64,000 nt of DNA from an uncultured beta proteobacterium (GCA_902825845.1 CADECM010000012.1:1-64000), one strand, 5' to 3'. Shown: positions 39,855 through 46,006, counted from the first letter of the stretch. Notes: generated by a model not told the origin, from the sequence alone. Numbers and translations: made by a program.

Positions 39855-41378
39855 TTACGACTCGCCACCCGCGATTTTGAATCGCACACGGTCAAAATCC
39901 GGTCCCGATTCGACCAGACCGGACGGTGCCAGATCAAACGACTTGCCGTCAGAAATTCGCGTTGCTTCCAGTACGCCGCGCAGGGCAAAAGATTCGGGAC
40001 GCAGCAGCACCTGCACGTAACCGCTGGTCGAGGGGTCCGCGCTGAGCAGCACCACATTGTGCGGCGTGCCACGCTCGCCGTCCGCGCGCCGGATGCACAT
40101 CGTCCCCGGCACCACCGCGCGACTGAGCACCTGCACCCCCACCCTGCGCTGGCCTCGCGCGTCGGTCTCGACGCGCCGCACCACGCCGGCACCCCAGTTC
40201 GCCCCGTCGACTTCCGGCAGCAAACCGATCAGCACACCGACCTGCAGCCACTCGCCACGGCGCTCCGGCACGATAATGCCATAGCCCTCGGCGCTCGCAT
40301 TCTCCACCACCCAGGTTTCCTGAAGGGTATTCTTGCCTTGCGCCAGCACCCCTTCAAACCCCTGAACAATCTGCAATGTCGTCGCCACCTTGCGCCGCAC
40401 CGAATCGCGCGCCGGCAATTCCTTTTCCCAGTTGAACGCCAGGTGCAACAGCGTGTCGGCGGCCTGATCCACATTGTCCACAACACCCAAATTCAGCTCC
40501 GGCGGCAACACCCCGCTCTCATTGACCGCGTCTACTGCGCTTTGTGCGGCATCCAGCGCGGCGCCCGCGCCGAAATAGAACAATCGCGCGCTGCGCGGCG
40601 CCTCCGCCAGCACGCGCGCCGGCGACATGCCGCCATGCAAATCGAAGAAAAAGTTACACCCTGGCGCAGGTTGCGTGGACGACAGGAATGATGCGGAAAA
40701 ATGTGCGATCGCCCGCTCCGCGATGTTCTGTTTCACCGGCGACAAGCCGCCCGTCGACGATACGCCCAGCATCATGGCGCGCAGAAACTCCGCACGCAGG
40801 GTGGAACGGCCGTCTGCTCCCGGGTAGATTTCCAGACTGTCATTCAGAATTGCACCGGCCTCCGCATAGCCATACAGCCTTGCGACCGTGCTCCAGTACG
40901 CATCACCCACGAACCCGTAGCGCATCAGAATCCACTTGATCTGCCTGACCTGCGCGCGCATCGCGCGTCCGACCAGTTGCGCAAACCGCGCACCGAATGT
41001 CTCCGCCGCGCCCCGGTCCGACATCACGTGCGAAACGCATTCCATGTAGCTGTTGCTGAGCGCTTTCCAGTAGCCCATGGCGGCTCGCCACAGCAGGCCC
41101 TCCTGGAACTTCGCCTGCGGTTTCAGCGCCAGATATTGATCGAGCAGGCGCTCGCCGTCGCCGGCCAGTGCGACATCGATACGGTCGATCACGTCATAGC
41201 GGTAGTTCATTGAAAATTCGACCGCGCCATGCAGCGACTCCAGCCACTGTACGCCCTCGTGCGCCGCGCGCACCGGGTCGTCGGCAGGCAGACCGGCGAT
41301 GACGCGCTGCACGCCGGCCATCGTCGCCAACGGATGTTCAGCGCCGCCATCCGCGCTTGCTACCTGAGTGTCGGCCAT
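39855..41378 (-). CDS. Large PilZ-like protein, paralogue A of three
   Basis: 507 residues. The N-terminal 330 residues are mainly helical and shared with B and C: HPLA, DP near residue 35, RYDVIDRID, LLWRAAMGYWKAL, RQIKWILMRYG, LRAMM, LSPVKQNIAER. The C-terminus carries the PilZ second motif N-x-S-x-x-G (N360, S362, G365) followed by YGIIVPERRGEWL and the beta-barrel-like VVRRVETDARGQ. The RxxxR half is not preserved (KVATT at the aligned place), so c-di-GMP binding is doubtful. GGAGA stands before the ATG. Function unknown. Confidence 0.82.
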   Translation of the reverse strand: MADTQVASADGGAEHPLATMAGVQRVIAGLPADDPVRAAHEGVQWLESLHGAVEFSMNYRYDVIDRIDVALAGDGERLLDQYLALKPQAKFQEGLLWRAAMGYWKALSNSYMECVSHVMSDRGAAETFGARFAQLVGRAMRAQVRQIKWILMRYGFVGDAYWSTVARLYGYAEAGAILNDSLEIYPGADGRSTLRAEFLRAMMLGVSSTGGLSPVKQNIAERAIAHFSASFLSSTQPAPGCNFFFDLHGGMSPARVLAEAPRSARLFYFGAGAALDAAQSAVDAVNESGVLPPELNLGVVDNVDQAADTLLHLAFNWEKELPARDSVRRKVATTLQIVQGFEGVLAQGKNTLQETWVVENASAEGYGIIVPERRGEWLQVGVLIGLLPEVDGANWGAGVVRRVETDARGQRRVGVQVLSRAVVPGTMCIRRADGERGTPHNVVLLSADPSTSGYVQVLLRPESFALRGVLEATRISDGKSFDLAPSGLVESGPDFDRVRFKIAGGES

Positions 41379-41441
41379 TCGCTTTCTCCGCACGGCATTC
41401 GCGCACATGCCTCCATCAATTGAAAATCCGGCGGGATCCGT

Positions 41442-42977
41442 CTACCCGGCGGACCCAGGTGCCCTGAAATACAGCCAGTCAAAATCGTGACCACTCTCCA
41501 GCACCCCGCCCGCCCGCAGGATCATCGGCGTATCCGCATCGCCAAACGTGGCTTCCACCGGCTCGCGGCCGCTGAAATGATCGCGTCGCATGACGACATA
41601 CAGATTGCCGGAAGGGGACGCTTGCGCGCTCAGCATGATGCCGCACTCCTGCGTACGCCCCTGCCGCGCCCCCGTCTGGGTACGCAGGAACACCGGCAGC
41701 GCGGCTCGGGACAAGACCTGTATGCCGAGCTGGTGCTGCCGGTATTGGAGTTCGTTCACACGGCGGATAATGCCGATGCTCCACGAAGACGCCGTCTGCG
41801 TTCGCGTTGCCACCAGCATTCCCACGCGCAATCCTTCGCCTTTTCCCTGCGGCACGATCACCCCGCAGCCGCCGCTGCTGACGTCCTCCGCGATCCATGA
41901 ATCATTGAGCAACGCGCCCGCGGCGGCAAGCCCTCCCGCGGCCTCGGGCGCGATCAGTTCCAGCACATGTTGAAAGCCTTGCACCGAGTTCAGGCGTTCG
42001 TCCGTCTTTTGGCGGGCCGCTGCGCGCGGCGGCAATTCCTTTGCCCAGTGAGTGCGCAGGTGCCTCAGCACGCGCACCACAATATTGTCTTCCGCGCCCA
42101 AACCCAGGTCCAGTCCCGCGGGCAGGCGCCCGGAACCACGCACGATGGACTGCATCGCGCGCAGTGTGTCGCGGGCCTCGCCGACATCAAAAAAGCGCGT
42201 CGCCGGACTGACTGGGGCGGATGGAACGAGACGCAGCGGCGGGCGCGATCCATCCAGATCGAAAAAGTAATCGTAATCATCCTTCAGGCTGGCGCTGCAG
42301 CGCAATTTCGGCGTCATATAAACGACCAGCCGCTCGGCGATATCCTGCTCGATGGGCGACAACGCGCTGGGCGAAGCCGCCCAATACATCATCAGCCGCA
42401 ATAACTCATCGTTGGGGGACGCCTGTATGCCACTGAAAAGATCGATGGTCCGGGCCGCGCCATCCACGGTTTCCGCCAGCATGACAAAGCGCCCGCACTC
42501 ACCCCAGAATTCCGAGCGCACTGCGCCGTAGCGCAGCAGCACCCATTTCAACTGGTAACGCAAGGCACGCAGTCCGCGGGCCGCCAACAATGGCAACTGC
42601 GCCGTCATGCCGTTGGGCGTGCCGTCGGCCAGACTGCATTGCCGGGCGCAGGCAAGATAGCCGTCGCCAAGCAACTTCCAGAAATCGCTTGCGGCCTTCC
42701 ACAAACGCCGGCCTTGCGGATCGTCGTCCGGCAACCTGACGTAGCTGTCCACCAGGCGCTCATGCGACTTGCGCACCGCCTCGTCGATCAGATCGAGCAA
42801 TTCGAAGCGACGCCGCAGCCTGAAGCCGGCAGTCTCGTTAATGGACACCAGCCATGGATTGGCTTCTTCCAGCGTCCTGCACGGGTCCCTGTGGGAAAAC
42901 GCGCCGACAATCTTTCTGGCCGCCTTGTCGTTTGCCAGCGGATGATCTACTTTGTCGCGCTTAAGCCAGGCCAGCAT
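41442..42977 (-). CDS. Large PilZ-like protein, paralogue B of three
   Basis: 511 residues with the same plan as A and C: an N-terminal WLKRDKVDHPLAN start, ELLDLIDEAVR, LWKAASDFWKLL, RYQLKWVLLRYG, LSPIEQDIAERLV and a YDYFFDLDGSRPPLRL segment. The C-terminal part has D-x-S-x-x-G (D365, S367, G370) with a KxxxR (K324-R328) instead of RxxxR at the usual distance before it. GGAGG lies 4 nt before the ATG. 63 bp separate it from A. I do not recognise a named family; c-di-GMP reception is a hypothesis. Confidence 0.82.
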   Translation of the reverse strand: MLAWLKRDKVDHPLANDKAARKIVGAFSHRDPCRTLEEANPWLVSINETAGFRLRRRFELLDLIDEAVRKSHERLVDSYVRLPDDDPQGRRLWKAASDFWKLLGDGYLACARQCSLADGTPNGMTAQLPLLAARGLRALRYQLKWVLLRYGAVRSEFWGECGRFVMLAETVDGAARTIDLFSGIQASPNDELLRLMMYWAASPSALSPIEQDIAERLVVYMTPKLRCSASLKDDYDYFFDLDGSRPPLRLVPSAPVSPATRFFDVGEARDTLRAMQSIVRGSGRLPAGLDLGLGAEDNIVVRVLRHLRTHWAKELPPRAAARQKTDERLNSVQGFQHVLELIAPEAAGGLAAAGALLNDSWIAEDVSSGGCGVIVPQGKGEGLRVGMLVATRTQTASSWSIGIIRRVNELQYRQHQLGIQVLSRAALPVFLRTQTGARQGRTQECGIMLSAQASPSGNLYVVMRRDHFSGREPVEATFGDADTPMILRAGGVLESGHDFDWLYFRAPGSAG

Positions 42978-43170
42978 GCGGCCTCCGGCTATGCGCGCCT
43001 GTAACAACGTGAGTAGGGGCTATGACTGACAACACGGTTCCATGCAGGATTGAAGGCGCGAGGATTATGACACTTCGCGACACGCCAGACCAATAACGCG
43101 TTCGCCGTTCGCGCCATCCATCACGCGTCGCAGACCCTCGCGTCACCCGGATTCATCCACGTCGCGGCGC

Positions 43171-44712
43171 TCACAACACGGTATCCAGCAACTTATACCG
43201 CAGCCAGTCGAAATCCTGCCCGGTTTCCACCACGCCACCCGGATCAAGCGTCACGGTGGCGGCAGGCGCGCCATAGCTTGCCTCCAGCGATTCCCGTCCG
43301 TCAAAAAGGTCACGGCGCGCCACGATATGCAGACTGCCCGTGCGCGACGGCCGCGCCGCCAGCAACAGTGCCGTCTGACGTCTGCCACCCTGGCTGGCGC
43401 CACTCTTGCGCAGGTAAATCAAAATCGCCGACTTTGAAATCAACTGTATGCCAACACGGTGCTGGCGGTGCTCGTCGCTCTTCACGCGCCGAATGATGCC
43501 GACTTCCCACACTGACGCCGTCTCCGTGCGCAAGGCCAGCAGGGTTCCCACGCGCAACCACTCACCCTTGCCGGCCGGGACGATCACGCCATAACCGCCC
43601 GGGCTCACATCCTCGGCGATCCATGCGTCGTGCGACAGCGTCGCGGAAAAATCCAGTCCCTCGCTCACCCCAGGCTCGATGACAGCCAGCACATTTTGAT
43701 AGCCGTGCGTCACCAGCAGACGCATCGCAGTGCGCCGCCGCACGGCGGATCGCGCCGGCATCTCCTTCGCCCAGTTCAACCCGAGATGCCGCAGCACACG
43801 CGTAACCGACGGCAAATCCGCCGTGGATCCCCAATCGACACTCCGCGGCAGCGTGTCTGCAACGCCGACTTCGGCGGCCTGCGCCTGTAGCGACTGCCAC
43901 ACGCCGCCGCCGTCGAAATAGCGGGTGGCGGCGCCCACCGGCACGGCGGACGAGAAGCGCAGCGGCGGCCGGGCGGCGTCCAGGTCAAAACAATAGTCAC
44001 AGCCGGGCCACGGCTGCGTTCCCAGACGATATCCGGGCGCGTGATGTCCCACTACGCGTTCGGCGATATCCTGCTCCAGTGGCGACAAGCCGCTCGGCGA
44101 AGCCGCCCAGAACATCATGGCGCGCAAAAACTCCAGTGCGTGGGAACTGGCCGCGCCGCCGTCCGCATACATGTCCAGAGGCTTGTCGACGGCACCCGCG
44201 GATTCAGCCAGACGGGCGCAAAGCGCCATGTCTGACCAGAACTCCGGGCGCAGCACGCCGTAGCGCATCAGCACCCAATGCATCTGCTGGCGTAGTGCAT
44301 GCGTTGCCCGCGCGGCCAGCAAGGACAGCCGCGGCTTGAATGTCTGGGGTACATCGCCGTTGTCCTGTGCCTGCCGCACGCAGGCGAGATACGCCGAACC
44401 AAGACTGTTCCAGAAATCGGTTACCACTTTCCAAATGCGCTTTTCCTGAACCAGTTCGTCCTGTGTGCGGGCGTGGTATGCGTGGCGAACCCGTTCCTGC
44501 GCCTTGCGCGTCGCCGCATCAATCTGGTCTATCACTTCGAAACGCCGATCGACCTTGTATGCGTCTGCCTCATTGACCGAATCCAGCCAGTAACAGGCAT
44601 CCTCCAGTGTCTTCAGCGGATCCCTGGCCGGAAAACCATCGATGATCCGCTTTAGCTCCCGGGCATTGGCCAGCGGATGGTCGACCTTGTCGCCTTTAAA
44701 CCAGTTCAGCAT
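43171..44712 (-). CDS. Large PilZ-like protein, paralogue C of three
   Basis: 513 residues, closest to B (same N-terminus, WFKGDKVDHPLAN). It is the best conserved as a PilZ protein: RTAMR (R327-R331) 37 residues before D-x-S-x-x-G (D368, S370, G373), followed by VIVPAGKGEWLRVGTL. The middle region is helical with RQQMHWVLMRYG and LSPLEQDIAERVV. It is the first of the three PilZ-like genes in the transcribed direction and lies 101 bp after the CBS gene. The start is set by homology with B; there is no good ribosome binding site and the frame is open to 44793. Confidence 0.82.
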   Translation of the reverse strand: MLNWFKGDKVDHPLANARELKRIIDGFPARDPLKTLEDACYWLDSVNEADAYKVDRRFEVIDQIDAATRKAQERVRHAYHARTQDELVQEKRIWKVVTDFWNSLGSAYLACVRQAQDNGDVPQTFKPRLSLLAARATHALRQQMHWVLMRYGVLRPEFWSDMALCARLAESAGAVDKPLDMYADGGAASSHALEFLRAMMFWAASPSGLSPLEQDIAERVVGHHAPGYRLGTQPWPGCDYCFDLDAARPPLRFSSAVPVGAATRYFDGGGVWQSLQAQAAEVGVADTLPRSVDWGSTADLPSVTRVLRHLGLNWAKEMPARSAVRRRTAMRLLVTHGYQNVLAVIEPGVSEGLDFSATLSHDAWIAEDVSPGGYGVIVPAGKGEWLRVGTLLALRTETASVWEVGIIRRVKSDEHRQHRVGIQLISKSAILIYLRKSGASQGGRRQTALLLAARPSRTGSLHIVARRDLFDGRESLEASYGAPAATVTLDPGGVVETGQDFDWLRYKLLDTVL

Positions 44713-44812
44713 GGGATGGGAAAATTCGACTCGCGGCAAGATTGGCGATGCCCGCGCATCCGGCTTGTGCACAACCGCGGCAGCGGCCGGCAAAGCGCCC
44801 GTGTCAGCCGGA

Positions 44813-45259
44813 TCAAACGTCTTCCTCCGGCCAGTGCTTGATGTAACGCTTGAGCAGGCGATTTTCGAAGCTTGCTTCCTTGATTACCGCCTTGGCAATA
44901 TCGTGGAATGAAATCACCCCCAGCAGTTTGCCATCCTCCCGCACCGGGACGTAGCGCACATGTTGCTGTGTCATGCGTTCGCGCAGGCTGTCGGCACTGT
45001 CCTCCAGCACGCATACCAGCGGCTCGCGCACCATGACCTCGCGCACCGGGAGATCGCCGAGGTTGCCGTGGCGCGCATCCAGTGCGCGCAGCACCTCGCG
45101 AAACGTCAGCATGCCCTGCATTTCGCCATCCGCCATAACCACCAGCGAGCCGATATCGTTCTTCACCATGGTGGCGACCGCATCCGACACCAGGCCGTCC
45201 GGCGCGATGCTGAAAATCGTATTGCCTTTGAGGCTGAGAATGTCGCGGATAATCATCAT
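44813..45259 (-). CDS. CBS-pair domain protein
   Basis: 148 residues: two CBS domains (about 8-60 and 72-130; VSDAVATMVKNDIGSLVVM and LRERMTQQHVRYVPVRE) and a short charged tail. CBS pairs bind adenosine nucleotides and regulate attached or partner proteins. It is upstream of the three PilZ-like genes and parallel to them. An ATGATG pair marks the start at 45259. Confidence 0.88.
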   Translation of the reverse strand: MMIIRDILSLKGNTIFSIAPDGLVSDAVATMVKNDIGSLVVMADGEMQGMLTFREVLRALDARHGNLGDLPVREVMVREPLVCVLEDSADSLRERMTQQHVRYVPVREDGKLLGVISFHDIAKAVIKEASFENRLLKRYIKHWPEEDV

Positions 45260-45331
45260 GCACCGCCCGGGTTGCGTTCGATTCGGGCTGATCTTAGCGC
45301 ACCCGACATACGCTGGAAAGGGCGAAAACGC

Positions 45332-45337
45332 TATAAT
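45332..45337 (+). promoter_or_regulatory. -10-like hexamer before the selenoprotein candidate
   Basis: A perfect TATAAT 24 nt before the ATG at 45362, in the 102-bp divergent region shared with the CBS gene. Confidence 0.45.
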
Positions 45338-45361
45338 CGGGCGACATCCAGCCACGAAAGC

Positions 45362-46006
45362 ATGCGCATGTCCCAACGTATACGCGGCATCACCGACACG
45401 GAAGCCACCGGGCCCACCAAAGATCTGTTCGATGCCAGCAATATTATGCTGGGCCGCACCGCCAATTTGCAGCGTATTTTGTCACACAGTCCAATGCTGG
45501 CACGCTGGTTTTTGCCGCTGGTGGCTGCGGTGCGCCAGCCCACTGCAGGCGCGGTATCCGACGTGCGCCTGCGCAACCTGTCGTGCCTGAAAACATCCAC
45601 CGTAAACAACTGCAACTACTGAACGCAGCATAATCGGGTGCTTGGTCAAGCACTGGGACTCACCGACGCGGAATTCGACGCGTTGCAATCTCCGGATTAT
45701 CTGTCCAGTCCGTTGTTCACTGACAAGGAAAAGTCGGTTATGGCGTGGTCGGAGGCCATGACGCTCAACACGGCCAAGCACGACGACAGCGTATGGAATG
45801 ATTTGCGCAAACATTGCAGCGACGCGGAAATCGTTGAAGTGTCGATGATGTGCGGCCTGTTCAACATGATCAACCGTCTTAACGACTCCTTCCGCACCGA
45901 GCTCGAATCGGAGGAATACAACAAGCGCCAGCACGGCGCGGTGGGCGTCACCGCAAAAGCGCTTGAAGACTACGCCTGCCGCATCTGTCAGCAGCGAAAT
46001 CCGTAG
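45362..46006 (+). CDS. AhpD-like/carboxymuconolactone decarboxylase family selenoprotein (in-frame TGA as Sec87)
   Basis: One reading frame of 215 codons interrupted by a single TGA at 45620-45622. Up to it: LRNLSCLKTSTVNNCNY; after it, without frameshift: TQHNRVLGQALGLT and a full CMD-type C-terminal half (DAEIVEVSMMCGLFNMINRL). Relatives have CxYCxxH here, so the TGA replaces the second cysteine (C84, Sec87, H90). A SECIS-like hairpin follows. A CxxC/CxxU pair would reduce peroxide or act as a thiol oxidoreductase. Alternative readings: a recent nonsense mutation or sequencing error, or two separate ORFs with the second starting at GTG 45638. selA/B/C/D are not in the window, so genome context must decide. 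Confidence 0.75.
45636..45656 (+). promoter_or_regulatory. SECIS-like hairpin downstream of the in-frame TGA
   Basis: A 6-bp stem GTGCTT/AAGCAC (45638-45643 and 45648-45653) closes a GGTC tetraloop (45644-45647). The loop starts 21 nt after the TGA, in the range that SelB needs. The E. coli fdhF SECIS likewise presents GGUC between two GC pairs about 18 nt after UGA. It also encodes protein here, so its pairing is noteworthy. Confidence 0.65.

Follow-up and report, generated by a model that had tools for sequence, protein, structure and literature searches.

Layout of the gene group

The window analysed here, a stretch of 64,000 nucleotides from an uncultured beta proteobacterium (GCA_902825845.1, CADECM010000012.1:1-64000), holds a group of four genes within positions 39855-45259, all of them on the minus strand (Table 1). 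The group is led by a CBS-pair gene and continues with three large genes, referred to here as C, B and A in the order of transcription, and the gaps between CBS, C, B and A measure about 100, 193 and 63 bp. An earlier note on this DNA had described three tandem paralogues behind a co-directional CBS-pair gene, and this arrangement is real. The three are consecutive genes of 507-513 residues on the same strand with ATG starts at 44712 (C), 42977 (B) and 41378 (A), and C shares 47% identity with B (E 5.4e-148) and 35% identity with A (E 4.8e-96). The leading gene runs in the same direction and its product matches Pfam CBS at E 1.8e-19 in two domains. Terminator-like matches across the region number 7, about what chance would give (5.6 expected), and a promoter scan of the region likewise stayed at chance level.

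Table 1. Genes, domains and motifs of the four-gene group (positions of the window; residues of C in the 540-residue numbering that starts from an upstream TTG).
Feature	Position	Strand	Remarks
CBS-pair gene, first of the group	44813..45259	-	148 aa, two CBS domains
Gene C	43171..44712	-	513 aa; helical domain, PilZ barrel and C-terminal beta domain in the model
N-terminal domain of C, all-helical and solenoid-like in the model	43759..44703	-	about 310 residues
Predicted PilZ barrel of C	43426..43758	-	residues 346-456
RxxxR of C	43738..43752	-	RSAVR, R348/R352
DxSxxG of C	43594..43611	-	DVSPGG
Gene B	41442..42977	-	511 aa, paralogue of C, youngest duplicate
RxxxR of B	42012..42026	-	RAAAR, intact
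DxSxxG of B	41868..41885	-	DVSSGG, intact
Gene A	39855..41378	-	507 aa, paralogue in the second genus-wide clade
RxxxR of A	40395..40409	-	RDSVR, intact
NxSxxG of A	40284..40301	-	NASAEG, intact

The relatives of the CBS protein in the PDB (3fhm, 2rc3 and 4fry, with E values down to 3.7e-18) are stand-alone CBS-pair proteins that have two CBS domains as well, and the ligand-site motifs LTFRE and SFxDxA are kept in 20 CBS orthologues. Unlike these stand-alone proteins, the CBS gene of the window is linked to putative PilZ receptors; its product carries neither an enzyme nor a channel domain. The genes adjacent to the three paralogues in the window are those for the CBS protein, a carboxylesterase and Mog, and a GGDEF/EAL gene stands next to none of A, B or C. 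Upstream of the CBS gene lies a divergent neighbour (44960-46006, plus strand) that appears by eye to be of the carboxymuconolactone-decarboxylase type. This gene is spread over two frames (44960-45622 and 45638-46006) and may be broken, the second piece being without a Pfam match.

Modelled fold of the large proteins

Structure predictions cover C and its N-terminal domain. The AlphaFold2 model of C, made with 66 aligned homologues, has a mean pLDDT of 90.5 and a pTM of 0.88, and consists mostly of helices between residues 44 and 340, a beta barrel at about 346-456 and another beta domain that extends to the C-terminus. In VIA-align, residues 347-455 of the model pair with solved PilZ domains at Z scores of about 10, several of these structures being bound to c-di-GMP; the match to 5vx6_A reaches Z 10.9 (rmsd 1.9 over 85 residues), followed by 8u0i (Z 10.4), 3kyg (Z 10.3) and 1yln (Z 9.9). 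Sequence profiles point to the same fold, as PF07238 is matched by 6 of the 66 homologues at E <1 (best 1.1e-5), and a profile-profile comparison of the family with Pfam-visible PilZ domains gave E 2.4e-4 at a moderate probability of 43%, with both DxSxxG motifs in register and two control profiles at 0.2%. Pfam and NCBIfam searches of A, B and C themselves returned chance-level matches at most, below the gathering cut-off, and a PDB sequence-profile search with the family returned no PilZ match. The PilZ-like character claimed in the earlier note is thus upheld by the barrel in the C model, the PF07238 matches among the homologues and the profile-profile match. By the modelled fold of C and by the motifs of all three, A, B and C are PilZ proteins, though they are missed by the Pfam cut-off.

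The N-terminal domain is helical in the full-length model and also when folded alone (pLDDT 93.5), which agrees with the helical domain described earlier, apart from a length of about 310 rather than 330 residues. A PDB fold that clearly matches it was not found by Foldseek, which gave nothing below E 0.28, or by VIA-align, where the best scores went to designed helical repeats (Z 9.7) and 14-3-3 (about 8) and may reflect a common arrangement. We therefore call the modelled domain solenoid-like and make no family claim for it. Y135, R162, Y178 and W186 of this domain are conserved class-wide, and this conservation suggests a functional groove.

Like YcgR, PlzD (VCA0042) and MotI-DgrA, the family has a C-terminal PilZ barrel with RxxxR and D/NxSxxG, and PilZ structures of this group are the best structural matches of the C model. 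YcgR-type proteins carry a beta YcgR/PilZN domain at the N-terminus, whereas the family has the predicted helical solenoid in that place and, unlike them, a further beta domain after the PilZ barrel. Membership in the YcgR flagellar brakes was considered and rejected, as the N-terminal beta domain is absent and the region is helical in both models.

Distribution, duplication and conserved neighbours

The family is present in 161 of the 370 sampled genomes of the class (Gammaproteobacteria), that is in more than 40%; among 299 genomes sampled across the phylum every match belonged to the same class and no members outside it were seen. A homologue search in 60 related genomes gave matches in 48, and no relatives were found in a plasmid collection. 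Ten distant members, Pseudomonas-type proteins included, were sub-threshold at best for Pfam PilZ and gave no NCBIfam PilZ match, and a limited literature search did not find a published description of the family or of its architecture. We regard it as a PilZ family with a new architecture within a known kind of receptor, widespread and overlooked.

At this locus, a single copy is found in most other genera. In the tree, A groups with the second-position copies of the genus and C with the first-position copies, while B groups with one copy from another genome (L010; 100/100) inside the C clade; a B-type gene was found in the window genome and in that one other. These groupings indicate that C and A arose in a first duplication and that B was later copied from C. 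Distant families of the class have tandem pairs of family members as well (L083, L084, L085 and L102), so tandem duplication is recurrent. A fourth family member is encoded in the same genome on contig C36 (L043 8818-10350). It lies near thiS-thiG-trmB-like genes and about 2 kb from a PAS-PAS-GGDEF-EAL gene, and these neighbours recur in congeners. In related metagenome assemblies, some first-position copies (in L007, L010, L011 and L028) are split by frameshifts and may be pseudogenes or assembly errors. The title of one public record, Bordetella parapertussis (L008), looks wrong, as the sequence matches contig C92 from a genome of the window's genus (G007).

In the genus of the window, and in some further families, the family gene has a CBS orthologue ahead of it. 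Such an orthologue, at 53% identity or more, is present in 25 genomes and adjoins the family gene in 24 of them, always upstream and on the same strand; in the one exception (G031) the two genes are on different contigs. The neighbourhood of CBS and PilZ genes that the earlier note had pointed to is thus a conserved one. This linkage is weaker evidence than it appears, because the convergent carboxylesterase, Mog and PmbA genes, which are unrelated, are equally conserved neighbours at the locus. It could be that simple synteny accounts for much of the CBS adjacency, and an explanation by chromosomal order only, with the receptors acting alone, falls a little short of even odds in our judgement. 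It does not conflict with the receptor part of our preferred reading, and it can draw on genomes in which an ATG22-like MFS transporter gene lies between the CBS and PilZ genes (L053, L068 and L075 among them), as well as on some that have the locus and lack the CBS gene (such as G019, G020 and G030). Against it stands the regularity of the arrangement in the 24 genomes, which hints at some coupling of the receptors to the CBS protein.

c-di-GMP motifs and a candidate function

Residue 348 of the C model pairs with residue 136 of VCA0042 (1yln, 2rde), and residue 347 with residue 135 (3kyg). In V. cholerae PlzD (VCA0042), R136 and R140 form the RxxxR motif and make guanine contacts, and the R140A substitution in V. 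vulnificus PlzD abolishes c-di-GMP binding (PMC10653909). The corresponding arginines of the family, R348 and R352, are kept in 63 and 64 of the 66 homologues; S397 is present in 63 and G400 in 65, D/N395 is likewise kept, and all five positions are complete in 59, at least one residue being missing in the other 7. Each of 24 members from across the class has the full architecture, with R348 in 20, R352 in 24, S397 in 20 and G400 in 24. Both arginines are therefore near-invariant across the class, which argues for ligand contact.

The D/NxSxxG module that had been described at the C-terminus is present in all three proteins. The graded loss of RxxxR that had been read alongside it (intact in C, KxxxR in B, lost in A) was a register error. 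The pair on which it was based, 354/358, lies six residues downstream of the conserved arginines and reads RTAMR in C, KTDER in B and KVATT in A; it is R/R in 6 of the 66 homologues and varies even among C orthologues. There is no graded loss, because the family RxxxR is intact in all three proteins, and the scheme of one binding and two derived subunits falls with it, since A, B and C and their orthologues retain the canonical contact motifs. As judged from these motifs, A, B and C alike are likely to bind c-di-GMP. The same genome has 39 GGDEF matches.

Our preferred reading, with a probability of about 0.7, is that A, B and C are c-di-GMP receptor adaptors with a helical interaction domain, that the family has a likely pilus or surface role, and that it has been duplicated behind a CBS gene here. 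The helical solenoid-like N-terminal domain would probably hold a partner protein, and RxxxR and D/NxSxxG of the PilZ barrel would clamp c-di-GMP; binding would most likely alter the barrel's angle to the solenoid, thereby switching the partner contact. Such an adaptor, in which the barrel would switch what the helical domain holds, is moderately well supported. An ancestral receptor gene behind a CBS-pair gene would have split into C and A at the root of the genus, and C would later have given B in a sublineage. All paralogues would be c-di-GMP-competent; their helical domains differ, so perhaps their partners differ as well. Hetero-oligomers of A, B and C are conceivable, and a role in pili or surface behaviour may tentatively be extended to the window's organism.

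It is also possible, and in our view unlikely, that these PilZ folds have moved past c-di-GMP binding and are protein-protein scaffolds only, like the PilZ proteins of type IV pili. The precedent is the T4P PilZ of the FimX system, which, for all its PilZ fold, does not bind c-di-GMP in vitro (PMC5595344), and the 7 homologues with an incomplete motif would suit this explanation; the 59 with all five positions and the near-invariance of both arginines across the class speak against it. Even less likely is that only C binds c-di-GMP while A and B are degenerate members of a hetero-oligomer for which the CBS protein is the nucleotide sensor: three co-directional paralogues stand behind a conserved CBS gene and both B-type proteins have lost W412 (present in 60 of the 66 homologues) and R353, but A, B, C and all clade members examined retain both RxxxR and D/NxSxxG, and the RxxxR that this explanation invokes is the inconstant pair 354/358.

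The surface role in the receptor-adaptor reading derives from the linkage of the family to fimX elsewhere in the class. Orthologues of fimX (E 1e-110 or better) are present in 115 of the 370 class genomes, and 85 of these also hold the family. Of these 85 genomes, 61 have the family gene as the immediate upstream neighbour of fimX in the same orientation, with up to 1.75 kb separating the two matches; the pairs were transcribed from the match listings. Because the family gene takes this position in most genomes that have both, surface behaviour or type IV pilus control is the likely process. In three loci assigned to Pseudomonas by gene order and near-identical FimX (L103, L104 and L107), 65-66 bp separate the end of the family gene from a gene of the REC-PAS-GGDEF-EAL type, whose product in L103 is a match to the FimX structure 4j40 (E 3.7e-200). 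From the gene order psd, unnamed gene, fimX, serB, the family gene would presumably be PA4958 of P. aeruginosa PAO1. PA4958 is unmentioned in the FimX literature examined, PMC5595344 among it. Members linked to fimX (L103, L105 and L107) have a conserved tail, EEDFDSLWKSL or similar, after a variable linker; this tail may be a docking peptide.

The adjacency to fimX is the point that the family shares with the FimX-PilZ-PilB system of Pseudomonas and Xanthomonas. The T4P PilZ of that system is a different PilZ-fold protein (PMC5595344), whereas the family is large and keeps the predicted binding motifs. P. aeruginosa FimX acts on pili without binding PilZ (PMC5595344). The adjacency is found in other families of the class; the copies in the window are not beside fimX, and FimX at orthologue level was not found in the window genome, where the best matches (1.8e-36) were generic GGDEF-EAL proteins. 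We offer as a speculation, and a rather doubtful one, that the family is an overlooked receptor class that works with FimX and supplies the c-di-GMP link that the small PilZ lacks in P. aeruginosa, and that a CBS nucleotide sensor has taken over from FimX beside a tripled receptor in the window's lineage.

Tallies of c-di-GMP receptors are usually based on Pfam PilZ matches. Such counts are likely too low, because Pfam misses a family that is found in more than 40% of the class genomes; in the genome of the window alone, the family would add four receptors to three Pfam-visible PilZ proteins. The gene upstream of fimX in Pseudomonas, which can easily be deleted, may serve as an entry point to how FimX acts on pili there without binding PilZ.
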